Made by a program: the position numbers and the translations under genes. Source: Seonamhaeicola sp. S2-3 (GTDB lineage Bacteria > Bacteroidota > Bacteroidia > Flavobacteriales > Flavobacteriaceae). Taken from it: a DNA stretch of 64,000 nt. The stretch is from the NCBI RefSeq assembly GCF_001971785.1, contig NZ_CP019389.1:3688837-3752836 (forward strand), in the 5' to 3' direction. Below, piece by piece: positions 29,786-35,626 of this stretch; position 1 is the first letter of the stretch; each line of letters begins with the position of its first letter. Below the pieces are notes generated by a model. The model was given only the letters and a program-made list of their open reading frames with translations. It searched no databases and was not told the DNA's origin.

Positions 29786-29859
29786 GGCGAGGTAGCTCAG
29801 TTGGTTAGAGCGTCGGATTCATAACCCGGAGGTCTCGAGTTCAAATCTCGATCTCGCTA
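29786..29859 (+). tRNA. tRNA-Met (anticodon CAT)
   Basis: A 74-base cloverleaf: acceptor GGCGAGG pairs with TCTCGCT (with terminal G-T wobbles), D stem GCTC/GAGC, anticodon loop TTCATAA with CAT at 29820-29822, and T arm TCGAG-TTCAAAT-CTCGA. The anticodon stem has an A-C pair next to the loop, as seen in flavobacterial Met tRNAs. The CCA end is not encoded. Whether it is elongator or initiator is judged from the G-T 1-72 pair and is not certain. Its 3' half is repeated at 34902, marking a site of integration. Confidence 0.92.
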
Positions 29860-29941
29860 CAACAGGAAAATCATCTAAAATCAACGGTTTAGTTCACTCT
29901 AAACCGTTTTTTTATGGAAAATATTTTAGATTTAATTATGG
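29817..29941 (+). repeat. Left copy of the tRNA-Met attachment repeat (attL)
   Basis: Begins at ATTCATAACC in the tRNA anticodon loop and ends at 29941 just after the start codon of the next reading frame. It pairs with 34902-35026 at a fixed offset of 5085. Differences between copies: T/C at 29872 versus 34957, and T/C at 29939 versus 35024. This copy restores a complete tRNA. Confidence 0.85.
29883..29913 (+). terminator. Terminator of tRNA-Met
   Basis: AACGGTTTAG at 29883-29892 pairs perfectly with CTAAACCGTT at 29899-29908 around a six-base loop; T7 follows (29907-29913). It is included in the duplicated attachment block, so a copy also stands at 34968-34998. Confidence 0.85.
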
Positions 29942-30219
29942 GACTGTATCGTCCTAGTATCTTTTATATACCTAGTAGTTTATTCCCAAATGCTTCTGAG
30001 AAAGCTAAAGAAGGTTTTAAAGAATTTAGAGTTACAGATGAGCTTGCTGTTTTAAAAATAACAGGAGATATTTCATATGTTGAAAACTGTATTCCTACTA
30101 TAGAACTTCTTAATAAGCAAAACAATTTAGATAATAACATTTTTCAATTACATAAATTTCAAGATCAACTCAAAAAAGATTCTTTTGAATTTATTTTGAA
30201 TAATGTAAGCTTCCCTTAA
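29914..30219 (+). CDS. Hypothetical protein starting inside the attachment repeat
   Basis: A 101-residue product with no recognised domain. Its first 9 codons lie in the att repeat, and the ATG directly follows the terminator T run, so no ribosome site or promoter is seen for this start. The ATG at 29938 (MGLYRPSIFYIP) is an alternative. The rest reads as a plausible mixed alpha/beta protein, with the segment FRVTDELAVLKITGDISYVEN. In the right copy of the repeat the same start reads MENILDLI and then diverges, so the N-terminus is only a shared att sequence. It may be a truncated gene. Confidence 0.4.
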   Translation: MENILDLIMGLYRPSIFYIPSSLFPNASEKAKEGFKEFRVTDELAVLKITGDISYVENCIPTIELLNKQNNLDNNIFQLHKFQDQLKKDSFEFILNNVSFP

Positions 30220-30464
30220 AATCGAACTGTTAATTCCTCCAATTTATTTTCATCGTCTCGTGAAAGATGATATTTTGCTTTTTCTTTTAAATAAAAATCT
30301 AAACTATCTTGCTCTATTGACCAATCAATACTGTTTTTAGAACCACTTCTTATCTCTAGTTCCTCAATAAAAATTGAGAAATCCTGAAGATACTTAGATT
30401 TATTGTTTGGTGAAGAGCAACCAACGAACAAACAAATAACAAGAAAAAAAAATCGATTAATCAT
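30216..30464 (-). CDS. Small lipoprotein resembling DUF6565
   Basis: The 82-residue protein has a lipoprotein signal peptide with Cys16 in the box FVGC. The mature part contains the pattern F-I-E-E, then IDW, an acidic stretch, Y-L-K-E-K-A-K-Y, and D-E-N-K-L-E-E-L, which resembles the short DUF6565-like lipoproteins of Bacteroidota. Convergent with the preceding ORF, with a 4-base overlap of the stop codons. It lies in the tRNA-Met island. Function unknown. Confidence 0.6.
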   Translation of the reverse strand: MINRFFFLVICLFVGCSSPNNKSKYLQDFSIFIEELEIRSGSKNSIDWSIEQDSLDFYLKEKAKYHLSRDDENKLEELTVRF

Positions 30465-30761
30465 AAAAAAATAAACTAAAATTATAATGGTAAAATTAAA
30501 ATTGTGTGTTCTATTTTTTTTACGGCAAACCGTAATTCAATAAAAAGCGTCTCATTTTAGTGCTTTATAAAAACTGTTAAGTTATATTTCTACGCCTCAA
30601 AAAGAACTCGTGTATATAATGTCTCCTCAATCAATTTGTGAATGTCTTTGTTTCTTATTATAAATAGCTGTTTTAGGTGTGAACTCCATATTTAAAACAC
30701 AAAAAACAAGGAATGATACTAATAATAGTTTCATTCCTCTAAAGTAATAGCCAATGGTGAA
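30465..30761. other. Island spacer without a recognisable gene
   Basis: 297 bases of AT-rich sequence. The only structure seen is a small inverted repeat TTACGG (30520-30525) with CCGTAA (30530-30535), too short to be a convincing terminator. No reading frame above 40 codons looks real here. Confidence 0.5.
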
Positions 30762-30926
30762 TTATCCACCTGTATTTGGAGGCGGAGGAGGAATATTCCC
30801 TCCATTACCACAACACGCTTCCTCCCCATCTGAAACTACTCCATCAACTTGATTCCCTTCTGGCGTACAAGAAAATAAGACTATATTAAAAAAGAGCATA
30901 AACAGTATTAAAGATATTTTATTCAT
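30762..30926 (-). CDS. Tiny lipoprotein with Cys-Cys and Pro-Gly-rich tail
   Basis: A 54-residue frame from ATG 30926. It has a lipoprotein signal peptide (box LFSC, Cys20), then an acidic part, a CC pair (residues 38-39) followed by GNGGNIPPPPPNTGG at the end. The Pro/Gly tail is low complexity. No family is recognised. The signal peptide and codon pattern support a real gene, though the short length leaves doubt. It could be a surface-exposed peptide or decoy within the island. Confidence 0.55.
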   Translation of the reverse strand: MNKISLILFMLFFNIVLFSCTPEGNQVDGVVSDGEEACCGNGGNIPPPPPNTGG

Positions 30927-31007
30927 CTTATTTGATTTTTAAAATTTGACAATAGTGCTGCCTGTCGCTTTTTAGCAACAATTTTGTTTCATGACAACAC
31001 ATGAATT

Positions 31008-31104
31008 AAGTAGTAGAGACGTCTCTCTTATGGGAAGTATGAAGCGTTGAAGTAAAGTGCTATGATTACTTCCCAAAAAACATAGCCGCTCCACTTCTCT
31101 ACTT
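31008..31104. other. Densely inverted-repeat intergenic region, possible structured RNA
   Basis: Three nested features occur in about 100 bases of an otherwise gene-free gap (30927-31265). A 12-base palindrome AGAGACGTCTCT sits at 31015-31026. TGGGAAGTA (31031-31039) matches TACTTCCCA (31067-31075). GCTATG (31059-31064) matches CATAGC (31080-31085), and the arms extend to an imperfect 31034-31064 against 31080-31104 pairing. Alternative folds compete with each other. No box or family is recognised. It may be a regulatory or noncoding RNA, a terminator, or the remnant of a recombination site. Confidence 0.4.
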
Positions 31105-31265
31105 CATTAATGAATTGTAAGCTCTTTAAAGATTTATAATTCGAAGACAAAAAAAGAAAGAATAAGCTGTTATGAGTGGAAGTTTAAAGGAAGTAATTAG
31201 GAAAATTGTTTCCTGAACGTTTCCTAGAGATTTTTTGTAGATTTATAGCACTTAAACCAAAACTA

Positions 31266-31952
31266 ATGCACAAAGATGTAGTTATTAAAGCCTTTGAAAA
31301 GGCACAAAAAGACATACCTGGAAAAACGAGTATAACAAATTGCTCTGAGCATATTTCAACAGTTTTATTGGATGAATTACATTATCAAATCAGTGGAAAA
31401 ACTTTAAGAAATTTATATAAGGAAGCTACATCGTCTGGAGAAAACGACATAAACATTAACTCAAGACACATAATAAATTTGTGTGATTATTTAGGATATA
31501 AGAATTACGAGGATTTTTTAAGCCATAACTCATCAAAATGTAATTCTCAAAAACGAAATACTTTTTTTGATTTTTTAAAAAGAAACAAAGCCAGTTTAAT
31601 AATAGGTTTTATTGCTGTTTTGTTAGCTTATTTCATTACTTCTTTTAATAAACAAAGGTGGATGATATGGCAAGATACAGAATATGTAGAAGTTGAATTT
31701 GACACCGAAAAGTACACTCTTTCACAACTAAGAATATACAATACAGATAGAATTGACAACTTTAAAAAAATTGAACCAAATTGTGAAACACAGTTCTTTA
31801 ATGAGAAAAATGAACCCCTTATTTGGTATGGCAAAAATTTTGATGGCACCTACGAATATTTTACCGGACTTGGTAAGCATCCACAAACTGGAAAAACCCT
31901 AAAAGCTATTACTGTTTATATAATACGAAAGTATATTTGTGATACTTATTAA
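31266..31952 (+). CDS. Single-span membrane protein with N-terminal helical domain, unknown function
   Basis: The 228-residue protein has an N-terminal soluble domain (residues 1-90, IKAFEKAQKDIPGK to DYLGYKNYEDFL) whose shape recurs in Bacteroidota proteins of unknown function; a membrane segment (about 110-127); and a C-terminal domain ending GKHPQTGKTLKAITVYIIRKYI, also seen in such proteins. The first domain might bind DNA or another protein and the last face the periplasm, but this is guesswork. ATG 31266 was preferred to an upstream TTG at 31206, since the sequence before it is not protein-like. It is inside the tRNA-Met island. Confidence 0.6.
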   Translation: MHKDVVIKAFEKAQKDIPGKTSITNCSEHISTVLLDELHYQISGKTLRNLYKEATSSGENDININSRHIINLCDYLGYKNYEDFLSHNSSKCNSQKRNTFFDFLKRNKASLIIGFIAVLLAYFITSFNKQRWMIWQDTEYVEVEFDTEKYTLSQLRIYNTDRIDNFKKIEPNCETQFFNEKNEPLIWYGKNFDGTYEYFTGLGKHPQTGKTLKAITVYIIRKYICDTY

Positions 31953-32027
31953 TAAAACTAATACAATTTTAAAAGAATTATTTTTTAGAGATTAAATAAA
32001 ATCTCTTATATTTAAATTAATTTTTTT

Positions 32028-32134
32028 ACTAACAAAAGTGAACACAAAACTGAACTCGTTTAGGGACACGATTTTTAATATAAACCTCTATAAATTATAG
32101 AAAATAAGCTAAATAACTACACTTTTTGTAATTC
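32028..32134 (+). repeat. Left copy of the 107-bp internal island repeat
   Basis: Aligned to 34799-34905 at a constant offset of 2771 without gaps, about 84 percent identity by eye. It includes three 12-bp units (32040-32075) and ends at AATTC. Here the AATTC is followed by the end of the 81-residue gene, and the TAG stop of that gene (32117-32119) lies inside the repeat. The right copy instead abuts the tRNA-derived attachment site, so this copy looks like a former element end now joined to other DNA. Confidence 0.75.
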
Positions 32135-32362
32135 CAACTTTTGCTTTTTGGGTTTATCGGTTTCATAGTCGGTATAGACAATAGTAAAATCACGTTCCAT
32201 ATCATCTAAATCAAAACCATACTCTTCATTCAGCATCAAAATAACCGATTGTAGGTTGTTTTCTTTGGCGCTAATTTTTTTGGGTTGATTTGTGAGCACA
32301 CAGAGTAATTGATTATCCTCTAATACTGTGCTGTCTTTTTTCTCTAATATTTCTATTGCCAT
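32117..32362 (-). CDS. 81-residue ORF, possible N-terminal remnant of a DNA methyltransferase/restriction gene
   Basis: It is the third gene of the AbiE-like operon, 7 bases after the nucleotidyltransferase gene. The product contains a YGFDLDDMERDFTI-like helix-strand pattern that I associate with the N-termini of type I restriction/N-6 methylase proteins, but no catalytic motif is present. Its last codons (LQKV) and stop lie in the 107-bp repeat, so it is probably cut short by the rearrangement that produced the repeat. An intact ancestor would have been much longer. A small third TA-type component is the alternative. Family assignment is weak. Confidence 0.45.
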   Translation of the reverse strand: MAIEILEKKDSTVLEDNQLLCVLTNQPKKISAKENNLQSVILMLNEEYGFDLDDMERDFTIVYTDYETDKPKKQKLELQKV

Positions 32363-32369
32363 TGACTGA

Positions 32370-33212
32370 CTATATTTTTATTTGGTTGTTTATATTTTCT
32401 ATGCTTTTAAAAACCTCTTCATAACTTAAACTCTTATGGGTTTCCAATATTTGATTGATGAGTTTGCTTTCTTCTTTTTTACCCACTTCACTTGAAAGTA
32501 ACTCCTTAATACTTTGTTTAGCTTCTGGATAGTTTTCTAATACCTGATTGATATGAATCCCCAATAGGACAGCTCCACCCTTAACTATGGTATGGTCATC
32601 AGTATAAACTGCTTCAAAATGTTCTAGCGATTCGTCTCGATGGATTTCTAAATAGTTTTGCAGGATAAAAGCGATATCATCGGCATCTTTATTAGTTTTG
32701 TGATTTCGGTCTTTCCATGCCACTATTTTAAGGAGCCCTATACCTGCTAAAGATGCTATTTGGATGTCGATATCCTCATCGATATTAACCTTTAATGCGG
32801 CATCGTTTACTGCAGGAAAGCCAAGTACGGACATTGCGAATTCTTCGTCTGGGGGCCAGAAGATTTTATCATCTTCTTTCATAATATGACCAAAAGGCAC
32901 GATATCTAAATCGAACTTGCCTAAATATTGGAAGCGTTGTTTTTGGTCTGGGTCTTTGGTGAAATTGGGTAGTTGTGTGATGCCTTCTTCAACAGTTTTG
33001 TATTGCTCCCAATCGTTGATGGTGATGGCAATATCCAAATCGTGTGTTAAACGTCCGGAACTTTCATCATGCAACTCCATAATAATATCACGCGCTGTCG
33101 CCCCAATGACAAAAAAGGAAATATCAGATGCCTTGAAATAGTCGGTTAATTCCTGAAGAATAGGCTTTAATAGCGGATGGTTGAATTTTTTACTGGATAT
33201 GCTGTAACTCAT
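32370..33212 (-). CDS. AbiEii/AbiGii-like nucleotidyltransferase (toxin of a type IV-type pair)
   Basis: The 280-residue protein has the polymerase-beta-like nucleotidyltransferase motif: G37-A-T-A-R41-D near the start and H57-D58-L-D60, the metal-binding pair, plus the KDRNHKTNKDADDI segment characteristic of AbiEii/AbiGii proteins. Such toxins modify tRNA or other targets with nucleotides and stop growth during phage infection. The ATG at 33212 (rather than a TTG at 33218) gives a 23-base overlap with the AbiEi-like gene, so translation is coupled. The upstream partner should neutralise it, by transcriptional control or binding. Confidence 0.78.
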   Translation of the reverse strand: MSYSISSKKFNHPLLKPILQELTDYFKASDISFFVIGATARDIIMELHDESSGRLTHDLDIAITINDWEQYKTVEEGITQLPNFTKDPDQKQRFQYLGKFDLDIVPFGHIMKEDDKIFWPPDEEFAMSVLGFPAVNDAALKVNIDEDIDIQIASLAGIGLLKIVAWKDRNHKTNKDADDIAFILQNYLEIHRDESLEHFEAVYTDDHTIVKGGAVLLGIHINQVLENYPEAKQSIKELLSSEVGKKEESKLINQILETHKSLSYEEVFKSIENINNQIKI

Positions 33213-34194
33213 TTTCAAATATTTGATTCGCTATTTCCACATTTCTACCATAGCCGCTATTCATTAAATCGGTATAAATCAATAAGGCTGGCACCGTGCT
33301 TTGATTCCAGTTGTTGTTTTGCCAAAACTTTTGGCGCACTTCCACATTACCTGTTTTATCAGGAACTAAACGCAATGTTTTTGCTATTTCAGGTAATTCC
33401 AGATTGCTATAGATGGTAAATTCTTGCGGTCTTAAATTATCGGTTAGGATGGCTCCTGCAGGCTCACCACCCCAAAGGATCTCACTACCTGTTTGATTTA
33501 AAATTGTGTGACGCCAATTTTGAGCCATATCAGAACCTATAAACTTCATTCGGCTTCTTATAATTCGAGGTTTTAAAACGGTATTGAACTCCACCAACCA
33601 TCGTTCCAAAAGTTCTTCCTTATTTTTAAGTACTCTTTTATCTTTGGTTTTAATCAAATAATTTAATTCTTCCAGTTCTGCCATCACATTACTTACAGAA
33701 CCTAAAGATACGCCTACTTTTTCTGCGATTATTCTGTATGAATCCTGTAAGTTTTCAGGTTCGTTTAACAGATGGAAGATTATTTTAACTCCAGCCTCTT
33801 GAAAGGCTCTAGATTGATTGGTTTTATGCTTAACCCTTCTTTTTTGACCTTCTACAAAAATCATTACATCGTCTTTACTAATAAAAGCGTTGCCAGCAGT
33901 ATCTATATAATTAAAGCCCCTCTCCTTTAGCTGTTTTGCCGCCTCTTTAGATATATATTGTGCAATTAATATAATTGGCTTATTACTTCGATTTCTAATT
34001 TCTTCAAGCTGTGACAGTACCAATCCCTGATTAGAGGTTCTCATAGCTGATTTAGCCTCTACCACAAACTGCATGTTTTTGATATTCAAAATAGCATCAT
34101 ATTTAGCTCTTGAGGTTTCAATATCAATTGGTATATTGATAACGCTCTCCAAATTTGCTACAGCTTGATAAATAAAATCGTTATTGCGATACAT
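33190..34194 (-). CDS. AbiEi-like antitoxin/regulator with PD-(D/E)XK-like N-terminus
   Basis: The 334-residue protein matches the AbiEi-type antitoxin family found beside AbiEii nucleotidyltransferases. Residues about 1-120 hold a pattern D33...E46-x-K48, with flanking strands (FVVEAK, IILIAQY) resembling a PD-(D/E)XK nuclease-like core. A winged-helix segment follows (about 130-195, AGVKIIFHLLNEP to SLGSVSNVMAELE), and then a C-terminal domain of unknown structure with WGGEPAGAILT. It is expected to repress its own operon by binding the repeats upstream and to block the toxin. Whether the nuclease-like part is catalytic is unknown. Confidence 0.72.
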   Translation of the reverse strand: MYRNNDFIYQAVANLESVINIPIDIETSRAKYDAILNIKNMQFVVEAKSAMRTSNQGLVLSQLEEIRNRSNKPIILIAQYISKEAAKQLKERGFNYIDTAGNAFISKDDVMIFVEGQKRRVKHKTNQSRAFQEAGVKIIFHLLNEPENLQDSYRIIAEKVGVSLGSVSNVMAELEELNYLIKTKDKRVLKNKEELLERWLVEFNTVLKPRIIRSRMKFIGSDMAQNWRHTILNQTGSEILWGGEPAGAILTDNLRPQEFTIYSNLELPEIAKTLRLVPDKTGNVEVRQKFWQNNNWNQSTVPALLIYTDLMNSGYGRNVEIANQIFENELQHIQ

Positions 34195-34198
34195 AATC

Positions 34199-34270
34199 TA
34201 TTGTTCATTTATTTTTATCGTTCAGTGACAATGAACATTCAAATATATTGAACATTAAATTAAAAAACAA
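34199..34270 (-). promoter_or_regulatory. Autoregulated promoter of the AbiE-like operon with TGAACA repeats
   Basis: Minus-strand TATATTTG at 34247-34240 and TTG at 34270-34268 (20 bases apart) form a good Bacteroidota promoter. AATGAACA-type repeats surround it: ATTGTTCATT at 34200-34209, AATGAACATT at 34230-34239 and ATTGAACATT at 34248-34257, plus a GTTCA half-site at 34220-34224. The -7 box lies exactly between two copies. The winged-helix AbiEi-like protein is the obvious candidate to bind them. Confidence 0.7.
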
Positions 34271-34798
34271 GGAAAACATAAAGGAAAGCAAACATGGTTA
34301 TATTTCAATACGGAAAAGCGTAAACTAAAGGTCACAAATAATTGAACAAGCTTTTAATTAAATCTTAGGCATCATGTTAATTTCCTGATTGAAATCAAAA
34401 AATTACAATCAACGAATTGCTTCAATAATTTTTCTGAGACCCTAGATGTTTGGGTAATGTGCATATATTTTTTTGCAATCATGCCCCCTTCAAATCCTTT
34501 TGGACACAAAATCTAACATTCCATTTATAATTTTAAGTTGACTTTGTAATTAAACTTGGTCCATACGCCAATTAACAAAATTAATTGAAGAAAGGATAAT
34601 CACCCCATACTAAAACATTTAGGAATGAATTTTATATTATTTTTTTAATCATCCGATTCCATTAATTATTACAAATACATTTTTACTATTATCACCTAGT
34701 ATACCAAAAACCAACTTGTGAAGTAATGGGGCGACAAAAAATCGCAAATTTTGAACAAAAGTAAGCACGTGATTTTATATATTTACTTTTCAAAAAAC
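34271..34798. other. AT-rich island spacer with no gene seen
   Basis: About 530 bases with stops in all frames and no stretch resembling a known gene, terminator or repeat. GAACAAAAG and GCACGTGATTTT near 34752-34775 vaguely resemble the 12-bp units further right. It may be decayed coding sequence such as a lost integrase, but no trace can be read directly. Confidence 0.5.
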
Positions 34799-34905
34799 AC
34801 TAACAAAAGTGAACACAAAACTGAACACGTTTTGGAACACGATTTTCAATACAGACCTCTATAAATTACAGAAAACAAGGCGAATAACTACCCTTTTTGT
34901 AATTC
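34799..34905 (+). repeat. Right copy of the 107-bp internal island repeat
   Basis: Matches 32028-32134. It runs directly into the right attachment copy, with its last bases AATTC forming the start of that block. This is the expected place for recombinase arm-type sites at an element end. Confidence 0.75.
34811..34846 (+). repeat. Three 12-bp direct repeats GAACAC-N6
   Basis: Units GAACACAAAACT, GAACACGTTTTG and GAACACGATTTT follow each other without gap. The degenerate copy at 32040-32075 has GAACAC, GAACTC and GGACAC in the same phase. Regular spacing next to an att core suggests binding sites for a recombinase or an accessory protein. Confidence 0.6.
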
Positions 34906-35026
34906 ATAACCCGGAGGTCTCGAGTTCAAATCTCGATCTCGCTACAACAGGAAAATCATCCAAAATCAACGGTTTAGTTCACTCTAAACCGTTTTTTTAT
35001 GGAAAATATTTTAGATTTAATTACGG
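34902..35026 (+). repeat. Right copy of the tRNA-Met attachment repeat (attR)
   Basis: Contains the 3' part of the tRNA from the anticodon loop, the terminator and 28 bases after it. The 5' half of the tRNA is absent, so this copy cannot make a tRNA. Its sequence upstream is the 107-bp island end. Confidence 0.85.
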
Positions 35027-35029
35027 ATC

Positions 35030-35128
35030 ATGACCAAAAGTTGTGTTTTATGCAAAAATTGTAGTTATTCTAAAGAGAAAGAATTGAATCAAGTCCAAAA
35101 GTTGTGTGTAGATTGTATAAATAGTTAA
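35030..35128 (+). CDS. 32-residue Cys-rich ORF (doubtful)
   Basis: A frame from ATG 35030 encodes C5-xx-C8, C11, and C26-xx-C29, which looks like a miniature zinc ribbon. Both CxxC pairs are encoded by copies of the same DNA repeat (CCAAAAGTTGTGT), so the pattern may be a by-product of repeated DNA. No promoter or ribosome site stands out. Listed because of the pattern only. Confidence 0.25.
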   Translation: MTKSCVLCKNCSYSKEKELNQVQKLCVDCINS

Positions 35129-35279
35129 ATGATTCTCTTAAAAAAGACAACGTATTGAAACTTGCACTAGACACACTAAAAGTTTGTATTGCCTAATAAT
35201 ATTATTGTATTTAATAATCTGTATAGCTATTTTAGGACGGGTCACACTCACTACTCACCACTCACTATTCACTTCTCAC

Positions 35280-35352
35280 TCCTATAGATGTCCTATAGAT
35301 ATCCTATAGATGTCCTATGGATGTCCTATGGATGTCCTATGGATGTCCTATG
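35280..35352 (+). repeat. 11-bp tandem repeat TCCTATRGATG, 6.6 copies
   Basis: Units start at 35280, 35291, 35302, 35313, 35324 and 35335, then a partial unit. The first three read TCCTATAGAT(G/A), the next three TCCTATGGATG. The period equals about one helical turn, and the copies are nearly identical, so the array is recent or maintained. It is not a CRISPR array because there are no spacers. Confidence 0.85.
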
Positions 35353-35626
35353 CTTTACCTATGAGTAAAATTATTGAATTTTCCCAGCTCATAACCAATT
35401 GTTGTGTTTAGGAAAAAATTGGTCATAATCCATACAAATGAAGAATTTCGTTAGTTTTAGTGTGTTTCACTAAATCGAAATTGTTAATTAAAAATTCAGG
35501 TAAAAACAGTTTTAATAGGTTAAGGTAAGTTCTAATACAATAATTTTAAAACTTCAAAACTAAAACGATCTTTATTCACACACAACTTTTGGGGTTAATC
35601 CAAAATAACTAAAAAAATGCAAAAAT

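Follow-up and report, generated by a model that had tools for sequence, protein, structure and literature searches.

A tRNA-Met locus of Seonamhaeicola sp. S2-3 read as a probable relic of stacked, decayed genomic islands

The tRNA-Met locus and its repeated ends

The region described here, positions 29786-35026 of a 64,000-nt window (the whole stretch of DNA analysed) from the single-contig, 3.75 Mb genome of Seonamhaeicola sp. S2-3, is an island adjoining a tRNA-Met gene. The intact tRNA-Met (CAT), detected by ARAGORN at 29786..29860 on the plus strand, constitutes the putative attachment (att) site. A direct-repeat search of the window located repeat D2 at 29817-29941 and 34902-35026, with 123 of 125 nt identical and T/C mismatches at 29876 and 29939, in agreement with the initial annotation, which had pointed to a 125-bp duplication with two mismatches. 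The first copy begins within the anticodon loop of the tRNA, and both copies run at their far end into the opening ~25 bp of an integrase (int) gene. When the 7-kb region was shuffled by mononucleotides 200 times, no shuffle contained so much as a repeated 20-mer.

A second direct repeat, D3, unreported by the initial annotation, occupies 32028-32134 and 34799-34905 with 95 of 107 positions identical (89%), and its second copy ends where the second D2 copy starts. D3 holds GTGAACAC, TGAACACG and GAACACG consecutively. A scan of the window for the 21-nt motif GTGAACACAAAACTGAACACG, tolerating as many as 3 mismatches, found it in both D3 copies and nowhere else (expected 0.00). This motif stands at the equivalent place before the core in genomes G006 and G030, and G034 has a weaker version of it; these are the three relatives in which D3-type right ends adjoin a tRNA-type core. 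D3 is likely the right end of an element with putative integrase arm sites. By comparison with the right ends of relatives, copy D3a (32028..32134, plus strand) would be the right end of an element A, its putative arm sites degenerate and its core lost, and copy D3b (34799..34905, plus strand) that of an element B, its putative arm sites GTGAACAC / TGAACACG / GAACACG intact.

The left ends are equally recognizable. An element-type intrinsic terminator lies at 29881..29913 (plus strand), directly 5' of the int ATG, as judged from the alignment of relatives and from folding; the fold of 29860-29925 is that of a strong terminator (z -5.27). Terminator and int start together form the left end of an element (int-start letters ATGGAAAATATTTTAG, ATGGAAAATATTTTAGATTTAATTA), and the window int start ATGGAAAATATTTTAGATTTAATTA is identical to that of G006 in 23 of 25 nt and to those of five others in 10-18 of 25. 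The first ~8 int codons, recognized by this identity, are joined in a 101-aa fusion open reading frame (ORF; 29914..30219, plus strand) to orf2, the gene directly after int in intact relatives, so that copy 1 passes into orf2 at codon 8. The fusion ORF matches orf2 of G006 at 43% over 95 aa (tblastn, E 4e-16); the protein collection holds no orf2 homologue at E <= 1e-4 beyond the G006 protein itself. The second D2 copy repeats the arrangement at 34966..35023 (plus strand), where an element-type terminator and the first ~8 int codons of a putative element C are recognized by alignment and by identity to int starts. This int start keeps 26 nt, beyond which a dispersed repeat, itself bounded by inverted ends, interrupts it.

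Absence of a readable recombinase between the copies, noted initially, was confirmed at several levels. A Pfam scan of seven island ORFs (smaller and overlapping ORFs lying outside the scan) returned only AbiEi_2 and AbiEii above cut-off, with no recombinase and no relaxase. Phage_integrase (PF00589) matches at seven places in the genome, none of them in the window. Two integrases (Int) of the matching family, searched against the window, gave no match at E below 1, and one of the two, searched against the whole genome, gave none either. The term decayed island is likewise apt, with int gone, its start fused to the next gene, and the genes of a methylation-associated defence system (MADS) truncated.

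Integrase family and putative recombination signals in relatives

The exact core motif was sought in 29 tRNA-Met loci of relatives (L002-L030) and found in 26, one of which (L027) ends right behind the motif; it is not in G020, G021 and G028. The terminator pattern followed directly by ATG is present in 8 of the 26, namely G003, G004, G005, G006, G011, G030, G034 and G035. Six of these (G003, G005, G006, G011, G030, G034) carry an intact Int of 441-457 aa directly behind tRNA-Met and the element-type terminator, which upholds the proposal of site-specific integration at this tRNA; G004 and G035 keep apparently only a decayed int start. G007 and G017 have a similar terminator and ATG outside the scan pattern, with no family Int at these loci, G008 has a diverged Int behind the tRNA with a terminator of another type, and terminators without a family left end follow the tRNA in, for example, G001, G002, G012, G023 and G025. 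In themselves, the two near-identical D2 blocks could reflect a segmental tandem duplication that copied the tRNA 3' region and involved no mobility. This is scarcely credible, being contradicted by the DNA before copy 2, a right end common to islands in other genera, and by the intact integrases at the same tRNA in relatives.

From its sequence, the family integrase is a tyrosine integrase of ~450 aa that in relatives starts directly behind the tRNA and terminator. The Ints of G006 and G034 score just under the Pfam Phage_integrase cut-off of 27.1 (25.9 and 26.6), and the former matches integrase family phrog_1 at 6e-28; a PDB sequence search with the family Int gave no match at E <= 0.01. 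Matches at E <= 0.001, some of them weak, occur in 19 of 98 genomes searched (that of S2-3 included, which has none). G069 alone has five family-Int matches, making it suited to a study of accretion. The protein collection contains 1989 relatives at E <= 1e-20, the best 120 of which entered the N-terminal motif count below. No description of this tRNA-Met island family, or of arm sites in the int start, was found in the literature by titles and abstract starts.

Right ends of relatives also delimit the core. The window core is matched over 46 bp in G003 and over 53 bp in G006 and G030, with identity in the latter two starting at TTCATAA, the anticodon loop; in G034 and G005 the right-end core has a longer match of ~97-98 bp that is less identical and extends through an element-type terminator. 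By this comparison the att core is about 46-53 bp, and the remainder of each 125-bp copy is the left end of an element. Core copy 1 accordingly spans 29817..29862 (plus strand), from the anticodon loop to the tRNA 3' end, as given by matches to other right ends, and core copy 2 spans 34902..34947 (plus strand), as given by the repeat and the core comparison. The long core of 125 bp assumed initially gives way to this shorter one followed by a terminator and the first 8 int codons. One island alone, with an att core of exceptional length (~98-125 bp) and an integrase lost by internal deletion, would fit the 98% identity of the two blocks and the G034 and G005 right ends that match through the terminator. 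It is nevertheless unlikely. The block includes int codons, which a bacterial attachment site (attB) has no reason to hold, other terminators stand at the tRNA in several relatives, the right ends of G003, G006 and G030 suggest a core ending at or just behind the tRNA 3' end, and the internal second right end, D3a, is left without explanation.

In G034 the right end is followed by an element-type terminator and ATGTCTTTATT, which matches that genome's own int start, an arrangement that looks like accretion in a relative as well. Two right ends in G011 (L072:18406-18500 and L075:3062-3130) have family arms and a core that leaves tRNA-Met after about 12 bp, possibly marking another attachment site.

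On the left-core side of intact elements the arm repeats coincide with int codons ~10-30 (NEHDLEHDLEHDLEH in G006). The arm motif is of the same type at both ends, GAACAC in G006, G011, G030 and G034 and GCATAC in G003 and G005, with the G005 ends lying on different contigs and the G011 right end having the departing core. Isolated GAACACG or GCATACG matches also occur elsewhere, in 6 of the 11 scanned stretches from relatives and at a single window position, 45963. At the protein level, tandem [EA][HY]xx within the first 50 residues is present in 118 of the 120 best-listed Ints, compared with 9 of 720 control windows. Codon usage in this segment is strongly biased. In 9 distinct int genes, N-terminal His is encoded by CAC in 15/15 cases, against 19/69 in the rest of the gene, and N-terminal Tyr by TAC in 16/16, against 65/188 (p about 1e-7, nominal only because the int genes are related). 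Leaving out L046 gives CAC 15/15 and TAC 13/13, against 16/59 and 55/169. The count takes int genes with an FSxPKIYxAxGD-type motif and excludes two others: L095, the second Int of G003, whose tandem motif reads AYVSEYESAYD, and L097, the diverged G008 Int, which is without the tandem motif and has TAT once before PKIY.

Such constraint at silent positions points to a signal in the DNA, which we infer to be an Int-binding site, and the intact relatives indicate that part of the recombination signals is likely written inside the integrase gene. The broader proposal, to which we give slightly better than even credence, is that a large flavobacterial family carries its left arm-type sites within the first ~30 int codons, the protein beginning with a translated att site (EHDLEHDLEH). 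Gene and signal would then be inseparable, a deletion of the int start would remove the left arm and lock the island, and relics like the present one would be a regular product. If so, both ends of many flavobacterial islands could be found from sequence only, and the locked state of int-less islands at tRNA-Met would have a simple reason.

The locus itself shows a family right end twice, and at the left a core with no arm cluster, in keeping with deletion of int; the left arm sites are likely gone because they were located inside the int coding start. As this loss accompanied that of int, a family Int is predicted to be incapable of excising the relic, which is likewise predicted to be unable to excise by itself. 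An incoming family integrase could yet insert at either core, and loss of the DNA between the 125-bp repeats would need homologous recombination. The initial suggestion that the repeat could still recombine is likely only in part: the cores and one right arm cluster are intact, but the left attachment site (attL) has no arm sites. The initial annotation had also offered a satellite mobilised by another element's integrase. A non-autonomous element kept mobile in this way could draw on both cores, the one intact arm cluster (D3b) and the seven Phage_integrase matches in the genome; it is very improbable, given that a genome search for the tRNA-Met family integrase gave 0 matches (G000, that of S2-3), that the left end has no arm site, and that genes are broken at both joints.

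Proposed assembly and decay of the island

Between the two D3 copies lies the remnant of a MADS locus, read on the minus strand. The block at 32130..34323 shares 89% identity with the Gelidibacter sediminis MADS locus, with 88-89% as the range over this species, Yeosuana aromativorans and one Flavobacteriaceae metagenome-assembled genome, and 74% in Gramella jeungdoensis. It contains an AbiEi-type antitoxin/regulator (33190..34194, minus strand; PF09952, 85.2 bits), an AbiEii-type nucleotidyltransferase (32370..33218, minus strand; PF08843, 32.8 bits) and a truncated MAD2, the MADS methyltransferase (32117..32362, minus strand; N-terminus of NF047738 / PDLC03318), of which 78 of ~680 codons remain, followed by 3 foreign codons. 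The MAD2 piece is 91-94% identical over 78 aa to four intact genes, and in intact MADS loci the MAD2 gene continues through the position of the window joint. In G. sediminis both MAD2 (827 bits, cut-off 720) and MAD5 (425, cut-off 400) exceed the NCBIfam cut-offs; in place of a full-length MAD2 with partner genes, the window holds 78 MAD2 codons only. The 81-aa piece is matched in 5 of 299 genomes of the family, S2-3 included.

The joint itself is at 32130..32134, where comparison with intact MAD2 loci identifies a deletion junction. Here D3a is joined to MAD2 codon 78, and the joint, AAGTTGGAATT meeting ACAAAAAG, has GAATT (minus strand) in common with the edge of the att core.

Taken together, two left ends, two right ends, the int-orf2 joint, the MAD2 gene cut at D3a and the int start cut by a repeat are the facts to be explained. 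That a single tRNA carries two left and two right ends belonging to one family argues for accretion followed by deletions. We therefore hold, with good confidence, that 29786-35026 is a decayed composite of tRNA-Met islands of one tyrosine-integrase family, formed by serial insertion and later int-removing deletions. The stack would comprise at least two elements and probably three, so that the one-element island of the initial annotation is superseded by a composite.

In the proposed order, the tRNA would be followed by element A (left end, cargo and D3a), then by a position from which the core, left end and int of B were lost, then by B, comprising the remnant MADS defence locus and right end D3b, and finally by the stub of C. 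At each insertion, Int would exchange strands in the anticodon loop (TTCATAA), the incoming element restoring the 3' half of the tRNA and supplying its own terminator and int. One deletion would have joined int codon 8 to orf2, also removing the left arm sites, and a second would have brought A's right end up against MAD2 at the GAATT microhomology on the crossover edge, through illegitimate recombination or else through the action of Int at a pseudo-core. The latter route, in which the lost A core recombined with a pseudo-core TAATTC in MAD2 and the left part of B was deleted, is a variant compatible with the composite reading. Its appeal is that the left edge of the anticodon-loop crossover coincides with the joint, but the 5-nt microhomology GAATT suffices without Int and there is a single case, leaving this route possible though doubtful. 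The odd 125-bp att repeat thereby becomes a readable history of accretion and deletion, in which a MADS defence island would be seen decaying at a hotspot.

The remaining genes of the island are cargo. A small lipoprotein-like ORF (30216..30464, minus strand), taken from the ORF list, belongs to no family found. A second one (30762..30926, minus strand) is recurrent, with matches in G011, G030, G003 and G025; the same genomes hold a homologue of the neighbouring 228-aa protein, the lipoprotein gene lying nearby on the opposite strand. The gene for this 228-aa protein (31266..31952, plus strand; frame open from TTG 31206) is also recurrent cargo, with homologues of 32-56% identity, among the loci at hand, in G003, G025, G035, G011, G018, G030 and G062, within about 2 kb of the right end in G030 and G011. 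The protein has a likely membrane span and no Pfam family.

To the right, the dispersed repeat that cuts element C extends over 35025..35606, as defined by its 38 matches in the genome (itself included) and its inverted ends GGATCATGACCAAAAGTTGTG. The DNA beside the copy at G000:164009 reads like the start of what is presumably a transposase gene. Positions 35280-35352 within the repeat form a short tandem array with an 11-bp unit (TCCTATAGATG type). Beyond the repeat, the DNA that precedes tRNA-Gly in G001 and G006 corresponds to 2944471-2949719 of the S2-3 genome, some 775 kb away, which places a likely chromosomal breakpoint somewhere in 35027-35621. In the six same-genus relatives tRNA-Gly and the right-hand genes are on another contig, or far off in the single-contig G003, and this separation makes a clean empty-site comparison impossible. 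The island is in none of 97 other genomes searched, the longest match outside S2-3 being about 720 nt at 68%.

Two observations concern MADS loci generally. Of 62 MAD2 loci (L115-L176), 33 have the AbiEi-AbiEii pair immediately upstream of the gene, with AbiEi alone in 3 more, and the pair is a possible MADS companion in Bacteroidota. In Jejuia pallidilutea (L152:6001-6235) the block is 86% identical and MAD2 is frameshifted near its start.

Several results weigh against the composite reading. The two window left ends are 98% identical, closer than expected for independent elements, and recent relatives or gene conversion must be assumed. The ~97-98-bp matches of G034 and G005 leave room for a longer core in some lineages. 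On the right, tRNA-Met and tRNA-Gly are together in 0 of 6 same-genus relatives, the rest of element C was not found in the candidate ancestral flank G000:2926000-2944471, and no int match for it was found anywhere in the genome. The family int was also not found in the 62 MADS loci (4 to 12 kb) or in four wider stretches around two of them, where an exact 12-nt core and paired GAACACG arms were likewise missing; the S2-3 stretches L186 and L187, included in this search, gave no match. Relaxing the patterns to a 9-nt core and to pairs of GAACAC or GCATACG yielded nine 9-nt core matches and no arm pairs. Apart from an ordinary tRNA-Met in L165, the core and arm patterns tried thus gave no family att in these MADS loci, and it is D3b only that ties the parent of element B to the family. 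Finally, a Streptococcus survey reports that integrative and mobilizable elements of one superfamily were never in tandem in its genomes and that decay was most advanced in the elements lying farthest from the target gene (PMC7563491); a stack of one family, decayed beside its tRNA, runs contrary to that pattern.

One of the 9-nt core matches is the tRNA-Met of L165 (4185-4259) in Flavobacterium notoginsengisoli, 1.7 kb from MAD2. From this locus, MADS may use the tRNA-Met hotspot elsewhere.

Comparison with known systems

The closest parallel is with the cis-mobilizable elements (CIMEs) of Streptococcus, the classical ones reported as 1.2-13 kb in size, and with the tandem accretion described there (PMC7563491, PMC5704250). 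Like these, the present island is flanked by att cores and stacked with further ends at one target, with its recombination genes deleted: none is found in the scanned ORFs, PF00589 is absent from the window, and the family Int has no match in the genome. Derivation by deletion from a related intact element is visible in the int start-orf2 fusion when set against the intact int-orf2 of relatives, and the flanking att sites keep their cores at both ends, with right arm sites present and left arm sites absent. Unlike the Streptococcus CIMEs as there described, the left arm sites are lost here too and no functional element is stacked beside (PMC7563491, PMC5704250); the stacked ends belong to a single family and have decayed beside the target, in contrast to the pattern reported there (PMC7563491).

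Among flavobacterial islands, the 10K genomic island of Riemerella anatipestifer similarly has a tyrosine integrase beside a tRNA and a 53-bp att repeat (PMC6764341), the tail of which looks like a terminator hairpin. It differs in using tRNA-Arg, in keeping its integrase, and in its reported integration and excision (PMC6764341). ICECleSHZ29 of Chryseobacterium shares insertion at tRNA-Met-CAT within Flavobacteriia, but is described as a 75-kb conjugative element with a 17-bp repeat at the tRNA 3' end, short of the anticodon loop (PMC12561888). The cargo resembles MADS in its MAD2 N-terminus and in the AbiEi/AbiEii pair preceding MAD2, and departs from a full MADS in that MAD2 stops after 78 codons and MAD5 and the rest are absent.

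Overlap of recombination sites with the integrase gene region is reported for the KplE1 prophage (PMC2951348) and Mx8 (PMC6070905). As these accounts present it, attL of KplE1 overlaps the int promoter (PMC2951348), while the phage attachment site (attP) of Mx8 lies inside int, which acquires a different 3' end on integration (PMC6070905); in the tRNA-Met family the putative arm sites are in the first ~30 codons. The relic itself fits the known CIME/accretion pattern and is CIME-like, ordinary in kind, the interesting part being the putative arm sites within int.

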